Shown here piece after piece: positions 2,608 to 17,886 of a stretch of DNA of 50,397 nt. The stretch spans positions 1-50,397 of the forward strand of contig JAFYRX010000052.1 in the NCBI GenBank assembly GCA_017546725.1, read 5' to 3'. The position numbers and the translations under genes are program-made. How positions within the stretch are numbered: the stretch's first letter is position 1; each line of letters opens with the position of its first letter. This stretch comes from Alistipes sp. GTDB taxonomy: Bacteria; Bacteroidota; Bacteroidia; Bacteroidales; Rikenellaceae. Under the pieces are notes generated by a model. The model saw nothing but the letters and a program-made list of their open reading frames with translations, did no database searches and had not been told where the DNA came from.

Positions 2608-3690
2608 CTATTTCTTGCGAGCCTCGCAATAAGCGCAACGATATCCGTCCTCGGTCTGGTGGAAGAGTTTATCTACATCCTCCCAATTCGAGATACATTG
2701 GCGATTACTACATCTCCAATCATTGTGCATCAACTCCTCGTCCAAGCGAGGAGTCTGACCCTCGGCGGGATGCTCCTTGGCCCACTCAAGCAGAGTATAG
2801 ATAAGTGCCATACGCACAAACTTACCATTCTCTACCTGACGGAAATATGCGGCTCTGGGGTCGTTATCCACATCGCGTGTAATCTCGTTAACACGAGGAA
2901 GCGGGTGCAGAACTATCATATCCTCCTTTGCCAACTTCATTCTCTCGGGATTCAGTATAAAACTATCCTTCAAGCGCTCAAACTCATCCTCATCCAAGAA
3001 ACGCTCCTTCTGCACACGAGTCATATAGAGGATATCCAACTCGGGCAATACCTCCTCCATAGTCGCTACCTCGCGCGTAGGAACATTATTCTTGTCGCAC
3101 ACCTCACGGCGAATATACGACGGCAGACGCAACTCCTCGGGAGCAATCAGCACCACATTGATACCCTCATAACGCGACAAAGCCTTGATAAGCGAGTGAA
3201 CGGTACGACCAAACTTCAAATCACCACAGAATCCGATAGTCAAATTATCCAAGCGGCCCTTCTCACGACGGATAGTCAAAAGGTCGGTCAGGGTTTGAGT
3301 CGGGTGGGCGTGGCTACCGTCACCAGCATTGATGATAGGAACATCAGAGTAATGTGAAGCGACAAACGGCGCTCCCTCCTTGCTGTGGCGCATAGCAATA
3401 ATATCGGCAAAGCAACCGATAACACGTACTGTGTCGGCTACAGTCTCACCTTTACTTACCGAAGACGATGCAGCATCCGAGAATCCCAACACACTACCGC
3501 CCAACTCCATCATAGCCGACGTAAAACTCAAGCGAGTACGGGTACTCGGCTCATAGAATAGGGTAGCAAGTTTCTTACCCTTACATACCTCGCTATATTT
3601 CTCGCGATTAGCGATAATATCGAGCGCTGTATTGATAATCTTATCAACTTCGGCAACCGAAATATCGGTTGTATCAATCAAATGTCGCAT
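2608..3690 (-). CDS. pyrB: Aspartate carbamoyltransferase with a fused PyrI-type zinc ribbon
   Basis: A 360-aa protein that condenses carbamoyl phosphate and aspartate to N-carbamoylaspartate. The catalytic core (about 1-305) has the carbamoyl-phosphate loop STRTR at 49-53, HPTQ at 129-132 and the HPLPR loop. Catalytic chains are normally about 305-310 residues, and this one has about 50 more. The tail carries four cysteines (327, 332, 352, 355) in CSNRQCISN and YRCAYCE, which closely match the CPNSNCISH and CKYCE zinc site of the E. coli regulatory chain PyrI. PyrI's N-terminal nucleotide-binding domain is absent, and no separate pyrI lies in the window. It sits 10 nt after pyrE. The fusion is seen directly; its effect on regulation is inferred. 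Confidence 0.96.
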
Positions 3691-10431: not shown

Positions 10432-11358
10432 TTACTTCACAATACCTATTATATCGCTCAAACGCTCAATTCCGAGGCGCTCCATCACAACGGGCAAATC
10501 CTCGATAATCTGCTTACAAGCGTAAGGATTCTTCAAGTTGGCGGCACCCACCTGCACGGCCGTAGCACCAGCCATCATCATCTCGATAACATCCTCTGCC
10601 GACTCTACGCCACCGCAACCCATAACGGGGATATTGCAAGCATTAGCCACCTGATACACCATACGCACTGCTACCGGGAATACCGCAGGACCAGAGAAAC
10701 CTCCCATTTTGTTGGCGATAACGTGACGGCGACGCTTGATATCGATTCGCATACCGAGCAACGTATTAATCAAGCAGATACCATCAGCACCAGCCTCCTC
10801 GCACGCCTTAGCGATTGCGACAATATCGGTAACATTCGGACTCAACTTTACAAACACAGGCTTTGTAGTCACAGCCTTCACCGCACGCGTAACCTCGGCA
10901 GCCATTTCGGGCTGTGTACCGAAACTCATACCTCCGTTATGCACATTGGGGCAAGAGACATTAACCTCGATAATTGCAACCTGCTCCTCCTTATCAACCT
11001 TCTCACAACACTCAACATACTCGTCAATCGAAAAACCGCTGATATTGGCGATAATAGGCTTACGGAAAATCTTTCTCAAACGAGGTAACTCCTCAGCCAC
11101 GACAGCATCCACACCAGGATTCTGCAAACCTACCGAGTTAATCAAACCAGCACGGCACTCTGCAATACGAGGTGTAGGATTACCAAAACGTGCCTCGCGA
11201 GTAGTACCCTTAACAGAGATTGAGCCGAGAATATTAATATCGTAAAAATCATTATGCTCCCTACCAAAACCAAATGTTCCGCTGGCGGGGATTACGGGGT
11301 TGTCCAACTTAACGCCACACAACTCCACCGACATATCTAAACACTTTGCCATACTCAT
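10432..11358 (-). CDS. pyrD: Dihydroorotate dehydrogenase B, catalytic subunit
   Basis: A 308-aa FMN-dependent TIM-barrel enzyme that oxidises dihydroorotate to orotate. The class 1B active-site cysteine is Cys136 in EVNVSCPNVHNGG. SVGLQNPG and VGGGVESAED-type FMN loops are present. Class 1B enzymes pass electrons through PyrK to NAD+, which suits an anaerobe, and pyrK is the gene immediately upstream, 6 nt away. Starts at Met1 or Met3 are both possible. It is the last gene of the operon, before a strong terminator. Confidence 0.96.
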   Translation of the reverse strand: MSMAKCLDMSVELCGVKLDNPVIPASGTFGFGREHNDFYDINILGSISVKGTTREARFGNPTPRIAECRAGLINSVGLQNPGVDAVVAEELPRLRKIFRKPIIANISGFSIDEYVECCEKVDKEEQVAIIEVNVSCPNVHNGGMSFGTQPEMAAEVTRAVKAVTTKPVFVKLSPNVTDIVAIAKACEEAGADGICLINTLLGMRIDIKRRRHVIANKMGGFSGPAVFPVAVRMVYQVANACNIPVMGCGGVESAEDVIEMMMAGATAVQVGAANLKNPYACKQIIEDLPVVMERLGIERLSDIIGIVK

Positions 11359-11364
11359 TCAGTT

Positions 11365-12105
11365 TTACCAGATTATCTCCTCTCGACGCATTACAGGGCC
11401 CTCCTTACAAATGCGCTTGTTACCCGTAAGAGTCTTACAACTACAACCCATACAAGCACCAAAGCCACAACCCATACGCTCCTCAAACGACAACTCTCCC
11501 TTCTGTGAGCAATTATCGCACAGAGCCTTCAACATAGGCAACGGACCACACGCATAGAAGTAGTCGAACTCAATCTTTGCCTCACGAATAGCGTCAGTCA
11601 CGAAACCCTTTACACCTACCGAGCCATCGGCTGTCGATACGTATACATCAGCACCCAACTGACGGAACTCCTCGGCATAGAATACCTCCGACGAAGTATT
11701 AAATCCCAATACTACGCTAACTTTTTTACCTGCAGCCAACAACTCTTTAGCCAAGTGGTAGAGTGGGGGTACACCCACACCTCCGCCCACAAGCAGAGGC
11801 TCATTACACTCTATCTCGGGATTGAAGCCATTGCCAAGACCTGTCAGCACATCCAACTCCTCGCCAACAGACATTTTGCACATCTGCTCAGTTCCGCGAC
11901 CTACGACTTTATAGATTATCGTGATGGTCTTATCGTCCCAATCGCAAATAGAGATTGGACGGCGCAGATAAAGGCCGTCCAACTCAATATTTACAAACTG
12001 TCCGGGACGCGTAATCCATTGCGTATCACCCTCTAACACCATACGATATACATCGCGTGTCAACGGTGAGTTTGCAACGATTTTATATATCCCTTTTTTA
12101 TACAT
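11365..12105 (-). CDS. pyrK: Dihydroorotate dehydrogenase B, electron-transfer subunit
   Basis: A ferredoxin-reductase-like protein of 246 aa when started at MYKKGIYKI (12105), 1 nt after the carB stop. An in-frame Met at 12120 would overlap carB. The FAD-binding part contains YLRRPISICDWD. The NAD-binding part has LLVGGGVGVPPLYHLAKEL. The C-terminal [2Fe-2S] ligands are the cysteines in GCGFGACMGCSC plus the one in RICKEGP. It carries electrons from PyrD's FMN to NAD+, in a PyrD2K2 complex as known for this class. Confidence 0.96.
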   Translation of the reverse strand: MYKKGIYKIVANSPLTRDVYRMVLEGDTQWITRPGQFVNIELDGLYLRRPISICDWDDKTITIIYKVVGRGTEQMCKMSVGEELDVLTGLGNGFNPEIECNEPLLVGGGVGVPPLYHLAKELLAAGKKVSVVLGFNTSSEVFYAEEFRQLGADVYVSTADGSVGVKGFVTDAIREAKIEFDYFYACGPLPMLKALCDNCSQKGELSFEERMGCGFGACMGCSCKTLTGNKRICKEGPVMRREEIIW

Positions 12106-12106
12106 A

Positions 12107-15100
12107 CTATTCAGCATCAATAGTTGATACTCCGAGAGTTATCTCCTCCAATACATCCAACAATACGCTCACAGTCTCCAATGCTGTAAACAACGTCACA
12201 TTGTTCTCGGCTGCGGCACGACGGATATCGTATCCGTCACGACGTGTGCTATGCTGATTTACATCGATGGTATTGATAACATAAGTAACGTGGCCCTTAC
12301 GCAACTCATCGTAAATCTCCGAACTGCCCTCGCTCAACTTACGCAATAGACGAGTACGAACGCCGTTGTTACGCAAGAACTCACAAGTACCCTTCGTAGC
12401 CTCGATATTAAAGCCCAAATCATAGAATCGACGAATCAACGGCAATGCACGCTCCTTATCGGCATCAGCAATGGTTACGAAAATCGTACCATAGTTTGCC
12501 ACAGCCACTCCAGATGAGCGGAGTGACTTATACAACGCCCGATTAAGACTCTTGTCGTAGCCGATAGCCTCACCAGTAGACTTCATCTCGGGTGAGAGGT
12601 ATGAATCTACGCCACGAATCTTGGCAAATGAGAATGCGGGTGACTTAACATACCAACGAGCCTTTTCCTTACCATACACCTCTGTGATGCCCTGCTCCTT
12701 GAGTGAGTGACCAAGGATAACCATTGTAGCAATCTTCGCCATAGGCACACCTGTCGACTTCGAGAGGAAGGGAACAGTACGAGACGAACGAGGATTAACC
12801 TCAATTACATATACTCTATCCTGCTCATCTACAATAAACTGGATATTGAACAAACCTACGATACCGATAGCCAATCCCAAACGCTGAGTGTAGCCAATGA
12901 TTGTATCCTTAACCTGCTGACTTACGCTGAAAGTGGGGTATACGCTGATAGAGTCACCAGAGTGGATACCTGTACGCTCAACGTGCTCCATAATACCGGG
13001 GATAAATACATCCTTACCGTCGCAGATTGCATCAACCTCCAACTCCTTACCCTGAATATACTTATCAACCAATACGGGCGACTTCTCGTTAATCTCAACA
13101 GCCGAACGCAAGTAGTGACGCAGAGTCTCCTCGTTTGCTACAATCTGCATTGCACGACCTCCCAATACGAAACTTGGACGTACCAACACAGGGTAACCGA
13201 TGCGAGCCGCTGCACGAACACCAGCCTCAATGTCAGTCACAGCCTCAGCCTCGGGCTGGGGAATACCAACCTCGTTCATAATGCGCTCAAAACACTTACG
13301 GTCCTCAGCGTTATTGATAGCCTGAATACCTGTACCGATGATATTTACACCCAAGTCAGCCAAAGGCTCTGCCAAGTTGATAGCAGTCTGACCACCCAAC
13401 GATACAACGATACCCTCGGGCTTCTCCAACTCTACAACATTCATCACATCCTCTACTGTCAAAGGCTCGAAATAGAGTTTGTCGCTGATAGTGTAGTCAG
13501 TAGATACGGTCTCGGGGTTGTTGTTAATAATAATAGCCTCATAACCAGCCTCCTTGATAGTCCAGATAGCATGAACAGTCGAATAGTCGAACTCCACACC
13601 CTGACCGATACGGATAGGACCTGAACCCAATACCAAAATCTTCTTGCGGTCGCTACGCAATGACTCATTCTCCTGCTCATAAGTAGAGTAGAAGTAGGGT
13701 ACATAGGTATCAATCTCACCAGCGCAAGAGTCGATAATCTTATATACAGGGAATACACCCTCGGCCTTACGAATCTGATACATCTCAGCCTCCGACTTAT
13801 TCCACAACTGGCCAATAAACTTATCGCTAAAGCCCATACGCTTTGCCTCACGCAAAACGTCAGCATTGCCTACGTTAGCCGCTACAACCTTCTCCATCTC
13901 AACGATGTTCTTCAACTTCTCCAAGAACAACATATCAATCTTGGTGTGGTTGTAGATAATCAACAAATCTACGCCCTTACGAATCAACTGAGCGATAGCA
14001 TACAAACGGTCATCCGTACCCTTGCGGATATACTCCAACAAAGCATCGTTCTTCCAATCGTCAAACTTCTTGCTATAGATATGGCAAACACCTGTCTCCA
14101 ACGAACGAACAGCCTTCAAGATACCCTCCTCGATAGTACGACCGATGCTCATAACCTCACCCGTAGCCTTCATCTGCGTACCCAACTCATTCGAAGCATC
14201 GCTGAACTTATCAAACGGGAAGCGAGCAACCTTCAAAACTACATAGTCCAATGCAGGCTCGAAGCAAGCGGGACGGCCCGAAAGCATAATCTCGTCCAAA
14301 GTCAAACCTACAGCAATCTTTGCTGTTACACGGGCAATGGGGAAACCACTCGCCTTTGATGCCAAAGCCGATGAACGTGACACACGGGGATTCACCTCGA
14401 TGATATAGTAGTTGAAAGACAAGGGGTCCAAAGCAAACTGAACGTTGCAACCACCCTCAATCTTCAACGCACGGATAATCTTCAACGCGCTACCACGCAA
14501 CAACTGATACTCCTTGTCTGTCAAAGTCTGCGCAGGAGCGATAACTGTAGAGTCACCCGTATGAATACCTACAGGGTCTACGTTCTCCATACTACAAATA
14601 GCGATAGCGGTATCATTCTTATCGCGCATCACCTCGAACTCAATCTCCTTGTAGCCCTTGATACTCTTCTCTACCAACACCTGATGTACGGGTGAGAGAA
14701 CAAGTGCGTTACGCATAATCTCACGCAACTCCTCCTCATTATCTGCGAAACCGCCACCTGTACCACCAAGCGTAAACGCAGGACGCAACACTACGGGGTA
14801 GCCAATCTCCTCAGCAGCCTTAACACCATCCTCCATTGTATTCACAACGAGCGAAGGCAATACCGGCTCACCAATTCTTACGCACAAATCCTTGAACAAC
14901 TCTCTATCCTCGGCCTCCTCGATACTCTGGAACGATGTACCGAGAATCTCGACGTGGCACTCATCCAAAACACCCTTCTTGGCCAACTGTACAGCCAAGT
15001 TAAGACCTGTCTGACCTCCCAAACCAGGAACAATGGCATCAGGACGCTCATAGCGTACAATTTTTGCCACATACTCCAGCGTCAAAGGCTCCATATATAC

Positions 15101-15289
15101 CTTATCAGCGATGTTTGTGTCGGTCATAATAGTTGCGGGGTTAGAGTTTACCAAGATTACTTCGTAACCCTCCTCCTTCAATGCCAAGCACGCCTGTGTT
15201 CCTGCATAGTCAAACTCTGCTGCCTGACCGATGACAATCGGACCAGAACCGATTACCATCACCTTCTTTATATCTGTTCTTTTAGGCAT
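12107..15289 (-). CDS. carB: Carbamoyl-phosphate synthetase large subunit
   Basis: A 1060-aa synthetase subunit with the duplicated design of the family. The first half starts KKVMVIGSGPIVIGQAAEFD and has an ATP-grasp domain near 125-340. The second half starts KKILVLGSGPIRIGQGVEFD near residue 550 and has an ATP-grasp domain near 670-860. The C-terminal allosteric MGS-like domain begins about 930. Bicarbonate, ammonia and two ATP give carbamoyl phosphate. The start overlaps carA by 8 bp, implying translational coupling. The partner CarA lacks glutaminase residues, so this subunit may be fed by free ammonia. Confidence 0.97.
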   Translation of the reverse strand: MPKRTDIKKVMVIGSGPIVIGQAAEFDYAGTQACLALKEEGYEVILVNSNPATIMTDTNIADKVYMEPLTLEYVAKIVRYERPDAIVPGLGGQTGLNLAVQLAKKGVLDECHVEILGTSFQSIEEAEDRELFKDLCVRIGEPVLPSLVVNTMEDGVKAAEEIGYPVVLRPAFTLGGTGGGFADNEEELREIMRNALVLSPVHQVLVEKSIKGYKEIEFEVMRDKNDTAIAICSMENVDPVGIHTGDSTVIAPAQTLTDKEYQLLRGSALKIIRALKIEGGCNVQFALDPLSFNYYIIEVNPRVSRSSALASKASGFPIARVTAKIAVGLTLDEIMLSGRPACFEPALDYVVLKVARFPFDKFSDASNELGTQMKATGEVMSIGRTIEEGILKAVRSLETGVCHIYSKKFDDWKNDALLEYIRKGTDDRLYAIAQLIRKGVDLLIIYNHTKIDMLFLEKLKNIVEMEKVVAANVGNADVLREAKRMGFSDKFIGQLWNKSEAEMYQIRKAEGVFPVYKIIDSCAGEIDTYVPYFYSTYEQENESLRSDRKKILVLGSGPIRIGQGVEFDYSTVHAIWTIKEAGYEAIIINNNPETVSTDYTISDKLYFEPLTVEDVMNVVELEKPEGIVVSLGGQTAINLAEPLADLGVNIIGTGIQAINNAEDRKCFERIMNEVGIPQPEAEAVTDIEAGVRAAARIGYPVLVRPSFVLGGRAMQIVANEETLRHYLRSAVEINEKSPVLVDKYIQGKELEVDAICDGKDVFIPGIMEHVERTGIHSGDSISVYPTFSVSQQVKDTIIGYTQRLGLAIGIVGLFNIQFIVDEQDRVYVIEVNPRSSRTVPFLSKSTGVPMAKIATMVILGHSLKEQGITEVYGKEKARWYVKSPAFSFAKIRGVDSYLSPEMKSTGEAIGYDKSLNRALYKSLRSSGVAVANYGTIFVTIADADKERALPLIRRFYDLGFNIEATKGTCEFLRNNGVRTRLLRKLSEGSSEIYDELRKGHVTYVINTIDVNQHSTRRDGYDIRRAAAENNVTLFTALETVSVLLDVLEEITLGVSTIDAE

Positions 15290-16370
15290 TTTTCTTCTCC
15301 TCCATCAATTTAATGAATTTATCAATAAGATATGTGCAATCCTGCGGACCGGGTGCGCTTTCGGGGTAGAACTGTACGGCATACACCTTATCAGCCTTAC
15401 ACTCAACACCCTCGATGGTACCATCCAACACATTCAGATGCGTAGCCTCAAGACGTGTAGCCTCCAACGATGCAGCATCTACAGCATAGTCGTGGCTCTG
15501 CGATGTCATATCGATACGACCTGTCTGGATATCACGCACTGCGGGTGAGCCGTGGTGACCACACTTCATCTTATATACCTTTGCACCGTATGCCAACGAG
15601 ATAAGTTGCATACCGAGCGAGATACCGAATACAGGGATACGTCCACAAACCTCCTTGATGATATCAATAACTCCAGGCAAAGCCTCAGGATTACCAGGAC
15701 CGTTAGAGATAAATATACCATCAGGATTGAAAGCCAAAATCTCATCCAATGTTGTGTTGTAAGGAACAACTGTCACATTGCACTCGCGGCTGATAAACTC
15801 ACGAATAATATTGTGCTTAATACCGCAATCCACAGCAACGATATCGTACTTATGGTTAGGTGTACGTGAGAACCAACGCTTACGAGAACTTACCTTTGCC
15901 ACCTGATTCTCGGGCTGCGGAGCATTCTTAATCATCTCCAAAGCCTTCTCTGTCGTAGTATCTACGTTCACAATAGTGGCACGCTGGCTACCCTCATCGC
16001 GGATTATGCGTACAATCATACGAGTATCAACACCTGCGATACAAGGGATACCTTGCTCTTCGAGTGTCTCGGCAAATGTTTTGGTGTAACGGAAGTTGCT
16101 AGGATTCTCGTTGCACTCACGAACTACCATACCGCCAACAACGGGCTGCTTTGACTCGAAATCCTCATCTGTAATACCGTAATTACCAATCAACGGATAG
16201 GCCATTACCACGATTTGGTCGAGGTACGAAGGGTCAGAAATAATCTCCTGATAACCTACCACAGAAGTGTTGAAAACGATTTCGCATACACGCTCCACGT
16301 CGGCACCATAGCCATAGCCGAGGAACTCGCGGCCGTTCTCAAGAACTAATTTTTTTGTAAATGGTTTCAT
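15282..16370 (-). CDS. carA: Carbamoyl-phosphate synthetase small subunit with a degenerate glutaminase site
   Basis: A 362-aa protein with the CarA N-terminal domain (IVFNTSVVGYQEIISDPSY) and a class I amidotransferase domain. The glutaminase site is not intact. The nucleophile is Ser251 in FGISLGMQ, where CarA normally has GICLGHQ. The triad His is Tyr335 in VQFYPESAPG, normally QYHPEASPG. The usual SQNHG reads SQSHD, which changes two glutamine-contact positions. The Glu (337) and the 84- and 2-residue spacings between triad positions match E. coli Cys269, His353 and Glu355, so the alignment is secure. The reading frame is otherwise whole and sits in a coupled pyrC-carA-carB operon. Loss of glutaminase activity is inferred; a structural role and ammonia-dependent synthesis are likely. 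Confidence 0.95.
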   Translation of the reverse strand: MKPFTKKLVLENGREFLGYGYGADVERVCEIVFNTSVVGYQEIISDPSYLDQIVVMAYPLIGNYGITDEDFESKQPVVGGMVVRECNENPSNFRYTKTFAETLEEQGIPCIAGVDTRMIVRIIRDEGSQRATIVNVDTTTEKALEMIKNAPQPENQVAKVSSRKRWFSRTPNHKYDIVAVDCGIKHNIIREFISRECNVTVVPYNTTLDEILAFNPDGIFISNGPGNPEALPGVIDIIKEVCGRIPVFGISLGMQLISLAYGAKVYKMKCGHHGSPAVRDIQTGRIDMTSQSHDYAVDAASLEATRLEATHLNVLDGTIEGVECKADKVYAVQFYPESAPGPQDCTYLIDKFIKLMEEKKNA

Positions 16371-16397: not shown

Positions 16398-17669
16398 TTA
16401 CTTATTCCATACAATCTTGCCATCGACCATAGTCAGACAGCATTCGCCACACAAATGCCAGCCCTCAAACGGGGTGCTACGTCCCTTTGAGTGGAAATCC
16501 TCGGGGTTAACATCATACTCCGCATTCAAATCGAATACCGCAATATCGGCAGCCTCGCCTTCATACAATCCGCCACCCAAGTTGAATATTCTGCGCGGAG
16601 CCTCACTCAACACCTCAACAGCCATCTCGAGCGAGATAACTCCCTCACGCACCAATTTTGTGTAAATCACAGCAAACGATGTCTCCAAACCTACAACACC
16701 CATAGCACTACCCGCCAATCCACGAGACTTCTCCTCCAAAGTATGTGGTGCGTGGTCCGTTGCCACTACATCAATTGTTCCATCCTTCAAACCCTCGACC
16801 AAAGCATCTCTATCCTCGGCTGAACGAATCGGAGGATTCATCTTGAATCGTCCCTCCTCCTTGAGGTCCATATCGCACATAGTAAGGTAGTGGGGGCCTG
16901 TCTCGCAGGTAATCTTCACGCCACGACGCTTTGCCTCACGAATCAACGCTACGCTCTCCTTGGTCGAGATATGACATACGTGATAACGACAACCCGTCTC
17001 GCTTGCCAACTCTATATCGCGCTCAATCTGCTGCCACTCACTCTCAGAGCAGATTCCCTTGTGACCGTGCTGTGCAGCATACTCTCCGTCGTGGATATAT
17101 CCACCTTTAAGCAACTCATTCACCTCGCAGTGTGCCGCAATAATAGCATCAGTCTTCACAGCCTCTACCATCGCTGCACGCATCATATCACCGCTCTGTA
17201 CGCCGCTACCATCATCCGAGAATCCAGCAACCATAGATTTCAACGCTGCAAAATCGACCAACTCACGGCCATATCTCTCACGGGTAATTGTAGCATAGGG
17301 TAGTACCTTAACCACCGCATCACGCTCTATGGCATCCAACTGTTGCTGAAGATGCTCCACTGTATCGGGTGCAGGGTTTAGATTAGGCATCGAGCATACT
17401 GTAGTAAATCCTCCGTGAGCCGCCGCAGCCGTACCCGAAGCAATAGTCTCCTTAGCCTCAAAGCCAGGCTCACGCAGATGAACGTGCAAATCCACCAAAC
17501 CGCTCACCACGATTTTATCAGTACAATCCACAACCTTATCACCCTCCAAAATCTCCACTTCGGGGGCTATCTGCTCAATCTTTCCACAACGCACAACTAC
17601 ATCAGCAATCTCCGATGTTCCGCCTCGCACGATGCGGCCCGATTTAAGTATAACTCTTTCGTTTGCCAT
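16398..17669 (-). CDS. pyrC: Dihydroorotase, class I
   Basis: A 423-aa amidohydrolase that cyclises carbamoylaspartate to dihydroorotate. The metal site is visible in LVDLHVHLREPGFEAKET (H62, H64, R66), IIAAHCE, YHVCHISTKE and VVATDHAPHT. The length and the HVHLREPG form fit the class I (PyrC/allantoinase-like) branch. It is the first gene of the operon, with carA starting 27 nt after it. A terminator hairpin with its T-run ends only 7 nt before the start codon, so transcription must read through it. Confidence 0.96.
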   Translation of the reverse strand: MANERVILKSGRIVRGGTSEIADVVVRCGKIEQIAPEVEILEGDKVVDCTDKIVVSGLVDLHVHLREPGFEAKETIASGTAAAAHGGFTTVCSMPNLNPAPDTVEHLQQQLDAIERDAVVKVLPYATITRERYGRELVDFAALKSMVAGFSDDGSGVQSGDMMRAAMVEAVKTDAIIAAHCEVNELLKGGYIHDGEYAAQHGHKGICSESEWQQIERDIELASETGCRYHVCHISTKESVALIREAKRRGVKITCETGPHYLTMCDMDLKEEGRFKMNPPIRSAEDRDALVEGLKDGTIDVVATDHAPHTLEEKSRGLAGSAMGVVGLETSFAVIYTKLVREGVISLEMAVEVLSEAPRRIFNLGGGLYEGEAADIAVFDLNAEYDVNPEDFHSKGRSTPFEGWHLCGECCLTMVDGKIVWNK

Positions 17670-17676
17670 ATATCAC

Positions 17677-17701
17677 AAAAAAGGCGACTAAACAGTCGCC
17701 C
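17677..17701 (-). terminator. Attenuator: intrinsic terminator in the pyrC operon leader
   Basis: On the minus strand, a perfect 7-bp GC-rich stem GGCGACT-GTTT-AGTCGCC (17700-17683) is followed by six T's (17682-17677), and the pyrC ATG is at 17669. The upstream promoter at 17852-17859 and the leader frame that stops at 17706 place it inside the 5' leader. An upstream segment at 17807-17813 (ATAGTCG) could pair with CGACTGT of the hairpin as a weak competing structure. Confidence 0.85.
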
Positions 17702-17705
17702 TATA

Positions 17706-17831
17706 TTAACAATAATAAACAGTTGTAACTACTTGATTTACATCTACATCACAAATTGAAAAATAATCTCTTGACTGCCAAATCTTACTTGGATTCGCAG
17801 CAGACACGACTATCTTCATTTGCTTAGACAT
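17706..17831 (-). CDS. Putative 41-aa leader peptide of the pyrC operon
   Basis: The frame begins MSKQMKIVV about 15-20 nt after the predicted transcription start and ends VNQVVTTVYYC, followed by TAA and then 5 nt to the attenuator stem. A ribosome that reaches this stop would cover the stem's left arm and favour readthrough into pyrC. The last codons are U-rich (GTTTATTATTGT), which could slow polymerase when UTP is low, as in E. coli pyrBI. It contains one Trp and no run of a single regulatory amino acid. I do not recognise a homologous protein. Translation is inferred from position, length and a well-placed ATG, not from similarity. Confidence 0.55.
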   Translation of the reverse strand: MSKQMKIVVSAANPSKIWQSRDYFSICDVDVNQVVTTVYYC

Positions 17832-17851
17832 ATCTCACCATTAAATTTGTG

Positions 17852-17886
17852 CAAAGTTAAGAAAAATATTTCAATCTTCGCACAAA
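17852..17886 (-). promoter_or_regulatory. Promoter of the pyrC-carA-carB-pyrK-pyrD operon
   Basis: TAACTTTG (17852-17859, minus strand) is an exact TAnnTTTG match. TTTG at 17883-17886 lies 23 bp upstream, a slightly long spacer. Transcription would begin near 17846, giving a leader of about 175 nt before pyrC. Confidence 0.65.

Follow-up and report, generated by a model that had tools for sequence, protein, structure and literature searches.

The pyr operons of Firmicutes are controlled by PyrR attenuation, and pyrBI of Escherichia coli is subject to UTP-dependent pausing. Within Bacteroidota, Bacteroid-trp is a leader-peptide attenuator. It is entered as RF01692 in a table row of PMC2864571, and clues to leader-peptide attenuators of amino-acid operons in Flavobacterium are given in a part of PMC9723704, which also places the promoter consensus TAnnTTTG at positions -12 to -5. 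For pyrBI, a role of ribosome coupling is described in passages of PMC5021804 and PMC4824070. According to a passage of the latter, a terminator located a few bases past a stop codon was strongly repressed in E. coli, and the effect was gone at distances of more than 27 nt; 10 to 15 nt of free mRNA counted from the A site permitted full folding of the terminator. The same source considers it unlikely that a ribosome catches the polymerase within the first 100 bp unless there is a pause, as in pyrBI.

An earlier note had described a pyrBI-like leader in front of a pyrimidine operon of Alistipes sp. and had called translated-leader control of pyrimidine genes in Bacteroidota not described. This agrees with searches of an open-access library only, in which no listed title or abstract opening dealt with leader-peptide control of Bacteroidota pyrimidine genes. 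A search of this library for transcription-translation coupling in Bacteroidota listed no direct study.

Leader and terminator upstream of pyrC

Analysis of the window, i.e., the whole stretch of 50,397 nucleotides that was analysed (contig 63 of a 2.1-Mb genome with an estimated completeness of 85%), revealed a run of pyrimidine genes on the minus strand. The nearest named records were gut metagenome genomes labelled Alistipes sp. and Rikenellaceae bacterium. The first gene behind the candidate attenuator is pyrC (16398..17669), which encodes a dihydroorotase of the clostridial type; it scored over the cut-off of the NCBIfam model TIGR00857, and its best-scoring NCBIfam model was NF006837, under its cut-off. 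This gene is followed on the same strand by carA (15282..16370; TIGR01368), carB (12107..15289; NF003671 and TIGR01369), pyrK (11365..12120; best NCBIfam match NF000799, under its cut-off), and pyrD (10432..11358; NF005574 and TIGR01037). The genes pyrF-pyrE-pyrB are located at 5055-2608, approximately 5 kb beyond pyrD and past a fab cluster, and have no comparable leader. Between pyrD and pyrFEB (10312-5435) are a gene for a DUF4294 protein, one on the plus strand for a LytTR-domain protein, and fabH-fabF-fabG.

Upstream of pyrC on the minus strand, the -7 promoter element TAACTTTG (17852..17859), which corresponds to the Bacteroidota consensus TAnnTTTG, precedes a leader frame of 41 codons (17706..17831) encoding MSKQMKIVVSAANPSKIWQSRDYFSICDVDVNQVVTTVYYC. 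The frame, read from the sequence and backed by a shuffle test across relatives (see below), starts with ATG at 17831 and stops with TAA at 17708-17706. Its last seven codons (GTT ACA ACT GTT TAT TAT TGT, 17709..17729) are U-rich (52% T) and constitute a putative UTP-sensitive pause region. The TAA is separated by TATAG (17705-17701) from the stem of an intrinsic terminator, a GC-rich hairpin followed by six T (17677..17702), which is the candidate attenuator. The stem GGCGACT/AGTCGCC with the loop GTTT occupies 17700-17683 and has 9 pairs when the flanking bases are counted, 5 of them GC, with an energy of -12.1 kcal/mol. The six T at 17682-17677 are followed by GTGATAT and by the pyrC ATG at 17669. 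Re-reading of the sequence bore out the coordinates given in the earlier note. Its claim that no space is left for a promoter between hairpin and gene also held, with 7 nt between the T run and the ATG; longer gaps exist in some relatives, and this statement applies to the window only. A scan revealed seven terminator-like hairpins in the window, and a promoter element together with a short frame was present at one of them, the hairpin upstream of pyrC.

An upstream ATG at 17841 (minus strand) opens a five-codon frame (ATG GTG AGA TAT GTC TAA) that overlaps the leader start. This small frame was not seen in L002.

Conservation of the layout in related genomes

The combination of promoter element, frame, and terminator was found in 64 of 65 usable loci with a clostridial-type pyrC, of which 60 belong to the genus and 5 to one other genus. 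A PyrC match was obtained in 59 of the 61 genus genomes (none in G037 and G043). In the genus set the layout was present in 55 of 56 judgeable loci, the sole true miss being L071, and a family-level search added nine loci (four of the genus and five of the one other genus), all nine with the layout. Left out were G052 (partial), G008/L109 (contig edge), G018/L110 (pyrC of the other type), and L117 (same genome as L097). The loci of named records (L002-L012, L018, L021, and L026; n = 14), some of which are of the same species, passed the same finder and were kept outside the counts. The TAnnTTTG element was a requirement of the finder and is thus present in all 64 loci by definition. Leaders of the same genus are not independent, and clustering at 70% yielded 32 groups.

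Dinucleotide shuffles served as the comparison with chance. An ATG located 8 to 45 nt past the box and opening a frame that ends near the hairpin was found in 59 of 64 leaders compared to 6.3 (SD, 2.3) in shuffles; with GTG starts allowed, the values were 63 of 64 and 10.1. The promoter box and the start were chosen at each locus to fit the frame, which slightly favours real sequences over shuffles. The frames are 27 to 49 codons long (median, 35), and four leaders are read from GTG (the start of L063 was moved to an upstream GTG by the script). Over all 64 leaders, the frame contains no stops, by construction, and the other two frames contain 122 and 124. These results confirm that the leader-terminator layout is real and not due to chance, as it occurs at only one of the seven hairpins of the window and is lacking at a single one of the 65 usable loci of relatives. 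The comparison of relatives that the earlier note had proposed for the frame and the hairpin thus came out in its favour.

Two named-record loci with a clostridial-type pyrC, L026 (upstream of position 3001) and L021 (upstream of 680), have very short leaders of 14 and 20 codons, respectively; the stop of the L021 leader lies within the hairpin. An initial transcribed region with AATTT occurs in 15 of 64 loci, e.g., in the window (17850-17841, minus strand), L112-L114, and L118; E. coli pyrBI has AATTTG. As AATTT follows the -7 element in only these 15 loci, reiterative transcription at the start site gained little support as a general feature.

Position of the leader stop codon and codon 7

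No stop codon among the 64 leaders is more than 10 nt ahead of the hairpin (the finder permitted a gap of up to 13 nt); the stop overlaps, lies in, or lies past the hairpin in 34. This placement fits repression of the terminator by a ribosome, and the U-rich codons sit where a pause would be. The distance is 9 to 10 nt in 4 of 64 leaders, close to the limit for repression, which was counted against a pyrBI-type reading. The greatest distance was found in the L073 class, to which L009, L010, and L012 also belong.

Judged from these sequences, the leader is probably a pyrBI-type translation-coupled transcription attenuator in front of the pyrC operon, with an estimated probability of roughly 0.7. 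We infer that the frame is translated, that its U-richness makes the polymerase pause in a UTP-dependent manner, and that a ribosome prevents the hairpin from forming. RNA polymerase would start just past the TAnnTTTG element, and a ribosome would load on the leader frame. With ample UTP, the polymerase would cross the U-rich end of the frame fast, the hairpin would form ahead of the ribosome, and transcription would stop before pyrC. With low UTP, the polymerase would slow down in the U-rich stretch and the ribosome would catch up; positioned at the stop codon, beside or in the left arm of the hairpin, it would block the hairpin and allow transcription of the operon. UTP would be the simplest signal because the operon product is a UTP precursor.

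The window leader has the Ile codon AUA at codon 7 (17813-17811, minus strand). AUA was found at this position in 29 of 64 leaders, and 14 of the 32 clusters have one, while at any other position in codons 2 to 15 it occurs at most twice. In full-length pyrC genes, AUA accounts for 211 of 972 Ile codons. The codon is kept at a constant distance from the start codon, although its distance from the promoter element varies. One guess is that slow decoding so early in the frame sets the timing of the first ribosome.

U-rich codons ahead of the hairpin

The 24 nt before the hairpin contain on average 48% T compared to 26% in the rest of the leader, and the content is higher in this piece in all 64 leaders. 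In the last 21 nt, the content of single leaders ranges from 29 to 62%; ten of the 64 leaders do not exceed 38%, which was counted against the pyrBI-type reading. A control with ordinary genes that end at terminators gave a mean T content of 0.33 compared to 0.48 in leaders, from 8 rows of which 3 are the leaders themselves, too few to weigh.

Codon choice was analysed in 38 leaders with a full pyrC (22 of 32 clusters), with expectations taken from the codon usage of pyrC alone in the same genome. Third-position T was found in 163 of 255 cases in the last seven codons (70.0 expected), in 117 of 242 in codons -14 to -8 (72.5 expected), and in 141 of 412 in codons 2 to 15 (115.1 expected), the last being a weak excess. 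When each of the 22 clusters was represented by a single leader, the last seven codons gave 97 of 145 compared to 41.6 expected. Third-position C was depleted near the hairpin (27 of 266; 110.0 expected), and third-position A was mildly raised there (46 of 266; 27.5 expected) and more so near the start (124 of 510; 71.5 expected). Since C is depleted and A is raised much less than T near the hairpin, U itself is favoured and not merely low structure. Together with the position of the stop, which adjoins the hairpin or lies within it in every leader, the choice of T at synonymous positions supports the pyrBI-like reading advanced in the earlier note.

The same anatomy would be expected if the attenuator, though coupled to translation, responded to how well the cell translates in general; its U-rich end would then be an unstructured or generic pause zone with no sensing of UTP. 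Such a device would explain everything but UTP dependence equally well, and the mild rise of third-position A is in line with it. We consider it unlikely, as UTP precursors are what the operon produces and the preference close to the hairpin is for T over A.

Leader peptide

The leader peptide is weakly constrained, with a pN/pS ratio of 0.62 over 16 disjoint pairs and values above 1 in 3 of them. The presence inside the operon of carAB, which also feeds arginine synthesis, raises the question of an amino-acid-sensing leader attenuator, e.g., for arginine, in which the ribosome stalls at codon runs. Arg runs do occur in some leaders (CRRRF and RRRRR; RRR to RRRRR in L103, L069, L086, L087, L091, and L096), and Arg makes up 7.9% of the leader residues ahead of the last seven, but it makes up only 0.9% of the last seven. 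No codon run is common to the leaders, and the window leader has a single Arg. G105, of the other genus, retains the leader in front of a 13-kb stretch without carAB, and the consensus fold of clade W offers no alternative partner for the terminator. Sensing of amino acids is thus decidedly unlikely.

A nascent-peptide sensor, in which the leader peptide would arrest the ribosome in response to a pyrimidine metabolite, could account for the peptide motifs seen within some clades (VTTV[YF]xC at the end, QQDYWSGFQSP, and GVKSESGYR). However, the C termini vary between clades, and both the pN/pS values and the T bias at synonymous sites argue against such a sensor, which makes this explanation very improbable. 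The pyrBI-type reading makes use of the U-rich codons and the stop position, and these are the features that were kept.

RNA structure and search for other regulators

Among the 64 relatives, 53 distinct hairpin sequences and 44 distinct arm pairs were found (the arms are paired by the definition of the finder). The hairpin energy had a median of -14.2 kcal/mol, compared to -12.1 kcal/mol in the window and -15.9 kcal/mol for the E. coli pyrBI stem. In the terminator of clade A, 2 of 11 pairs were changed on both sides with pairing kept; in clade W, where the pairs hardly vary, this applied to 0 of 8. The leader RNA of the window was more stably folded than its shuffled versions (z = -2.7; 2 of 200). 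The consensus fold of clade A contained two weak extra stems upstream, in which 3 of 11 pairs were changed on both sides and each pair was broken in 1 to 4 of 14 rows; that of clade W contained the terminator only. A conserved antiterminator was therefore rejected. The folding of the window leader and the two stems of clade A were nevertheless counted against the pyrBI-type reading, since RNA structure may have some part in the control.

Rfam searches returned no family at the gathering score; the ten matches of one of them were all far under gathering scores, and an Rfam riboswitch or leader was rejected. The PyrR search, which used the single model NF003549, gave no match over the cut-off in 61 genomes (best, 33.2 bits; cut-off, 138), and PyrR control was rejected on this ground. 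Weaker NF003549 matches in 47 of the 61 genomes were taken for putative other phosphoribosyltransferases. In 14 control genomes, the model matched in 12, over the cut-off in 6. An attenuator based on a protein or on RNA structure (PyrR-like or a riboswitch), with the frame being incidental, is extremely improbable: the terminator in front of the operon, the folding of the window leader, the possible stems in clade A, and the weak PyrR-model matches would fit it, but no PyrR match over the cut-off or Rfam family at gathering score was obtained, clade W has only the terminator stem, and the frame is kept far above chance.

Origin of the operon

PyrC demonstrated 56 to 65% identity to 13 of 15 Clostridia-labelled records (39 to 40% to the remaining two) and mostly 26 to 36% identity to the proteins of other sampled Bacteroidales genera. 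The gene order pyrC, pyrK, pyrD, pyrF is present at two of the Clostridia-labelled loci, and pyrC-carA-carB is present at another. These PyrC identities and gene orders suggest that a clostridial-type operon was transferred into the ancestor of both leader-bearing genera, the gene runs being taken as putative single transcripts.

Comparison of gene orders revealed pyrC-carA-carB-pyrK-pyrD-pyrF-pyrE-pyrB as a single run behind the leader in G051. The order is the same in G054, but with a gap of approximately 1.4 kb between pyrF and pyrE. The 13-kb stretch of G105 carries pyrC-pyrK-pyrD-pyrF-pyrE-pyrB. In G014, the closest relative, fab genes split the pathway, which is also the case in the window. 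There (L201), DUF4294 and fabH-fabF-fabG likewise part pyrD from pyrFEB; the LytTR gene was checked in the window only.

Other pyr loci

A scan of pyrB in Bacteroidales covered 31 loci, from 30 of 119 genomes among the matches listed plus that of G018. A terminator-like hairpin was found within 300 nt in 17 of the 31 and a qualifying frame in one (L219, 11 codons, doubtful). In 19 pyrB loci read by eye, several hairpins stood directly behind the upstream gene. Within roughly the last 180 nt ahead of pyrB in L217 (G160, from another Bacteroidales family), reading by eye revealed a TAnnTTTG element followed by a frame of 30 codons and a hairpin resembling a terminator, which the scan had missed. 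The stop of this frame lies in the left arm of the hairpin, and the frame is not particularly U-rich; by its sequence it is possibly an independent leader attenuator.

Ordinary Bacteroidota pyrC genes had three hairpins and no leaders among the 40 of 47 loci scanned. No terminator-like hairpin was found within 300 nt in 13 of 17 Firmicutes-labelled loci; in the other four, the best hairpin was located 123 to 246 nt before the match, the start of which differs from the gene start in several Firmicutes-labelled loci.

Discussion

The data are best read as pyrBI-type attenuation with an origin of its own in a lineage of Bacteroidota that carries a clostridial-type UMP operon. In a fuller version, to which we give an even chance, the lineage acquired a complete clostridial-type UMP operon and then built a UTP-sensing, ribosome-coupled attenuator anew; the peptide diverged across the genus, and the U-rich codons, the stop position, and often the AUA at codon 7, which may time the ribosome relative to the polymerase, were kept.

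If this is true, it would represent a convergent second origin of the pyrBI logic, would show that UTP sensing by pause and catch-up arose more than once, and would provide genetic evidence for ribosome and polymerase running close together in Bacteroidota. The layout is conserved and occurs naturally, and as a reporter of transcription-translation coupling for this phylum it would be easy to test. It also offers a candidate regulator of UMP synthesis for a genus without a PyrR match over the cut-off.

Among the described systems, PyrR attenuation is alike in placing a terminator before a pyr operon; the present locus differs in its conserved frame and in that NF003549 gave no match over the cut-off in the 61 genomes. 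Bacteroid-trp and the Flavobacterium candidates share the phylum and the proposed leader-peptide attenuation. They differ in serving amino-acid operons, whereas the leader studied here has no Rfam match at gathering score and no common codon run.

The likeness is closest to E. coli pyrBI with PyrL, for which the leader and the gene order were taken from NC_000913. Both have a short leader frame, a U-rich stretch, and an intrinsic terminator that closely precedes the first gene of the pyrimidine operon, and in both a ribosome is able to cover the hairpin, which for the present locus is a prediction. BLASTP aligned no part of the window leader with PyrL at an E value of 100 or less, although kinship could be hidden in such short, fast-changing peptides. 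The present leader belongs to another phylum, has another promoter type, and precedes pyrC-car-pyrKD (with pyrFEB in some genomes) instead of pyrBI. Its stop is mostly located before or in the hairpin, whereas that of PyrL is located after it, and the AUA at codon 7 is a further difference from PyrL. The U-rich stretch abuts the hairpin here, while in E. coli it is located further upstream and a 24-nt piece there contains only 33% T; the timing would therefore differ, which was counted against the pyrBI-type reading. By this analogy, the leader would work like pyrL, the proposed likeness being one of function.
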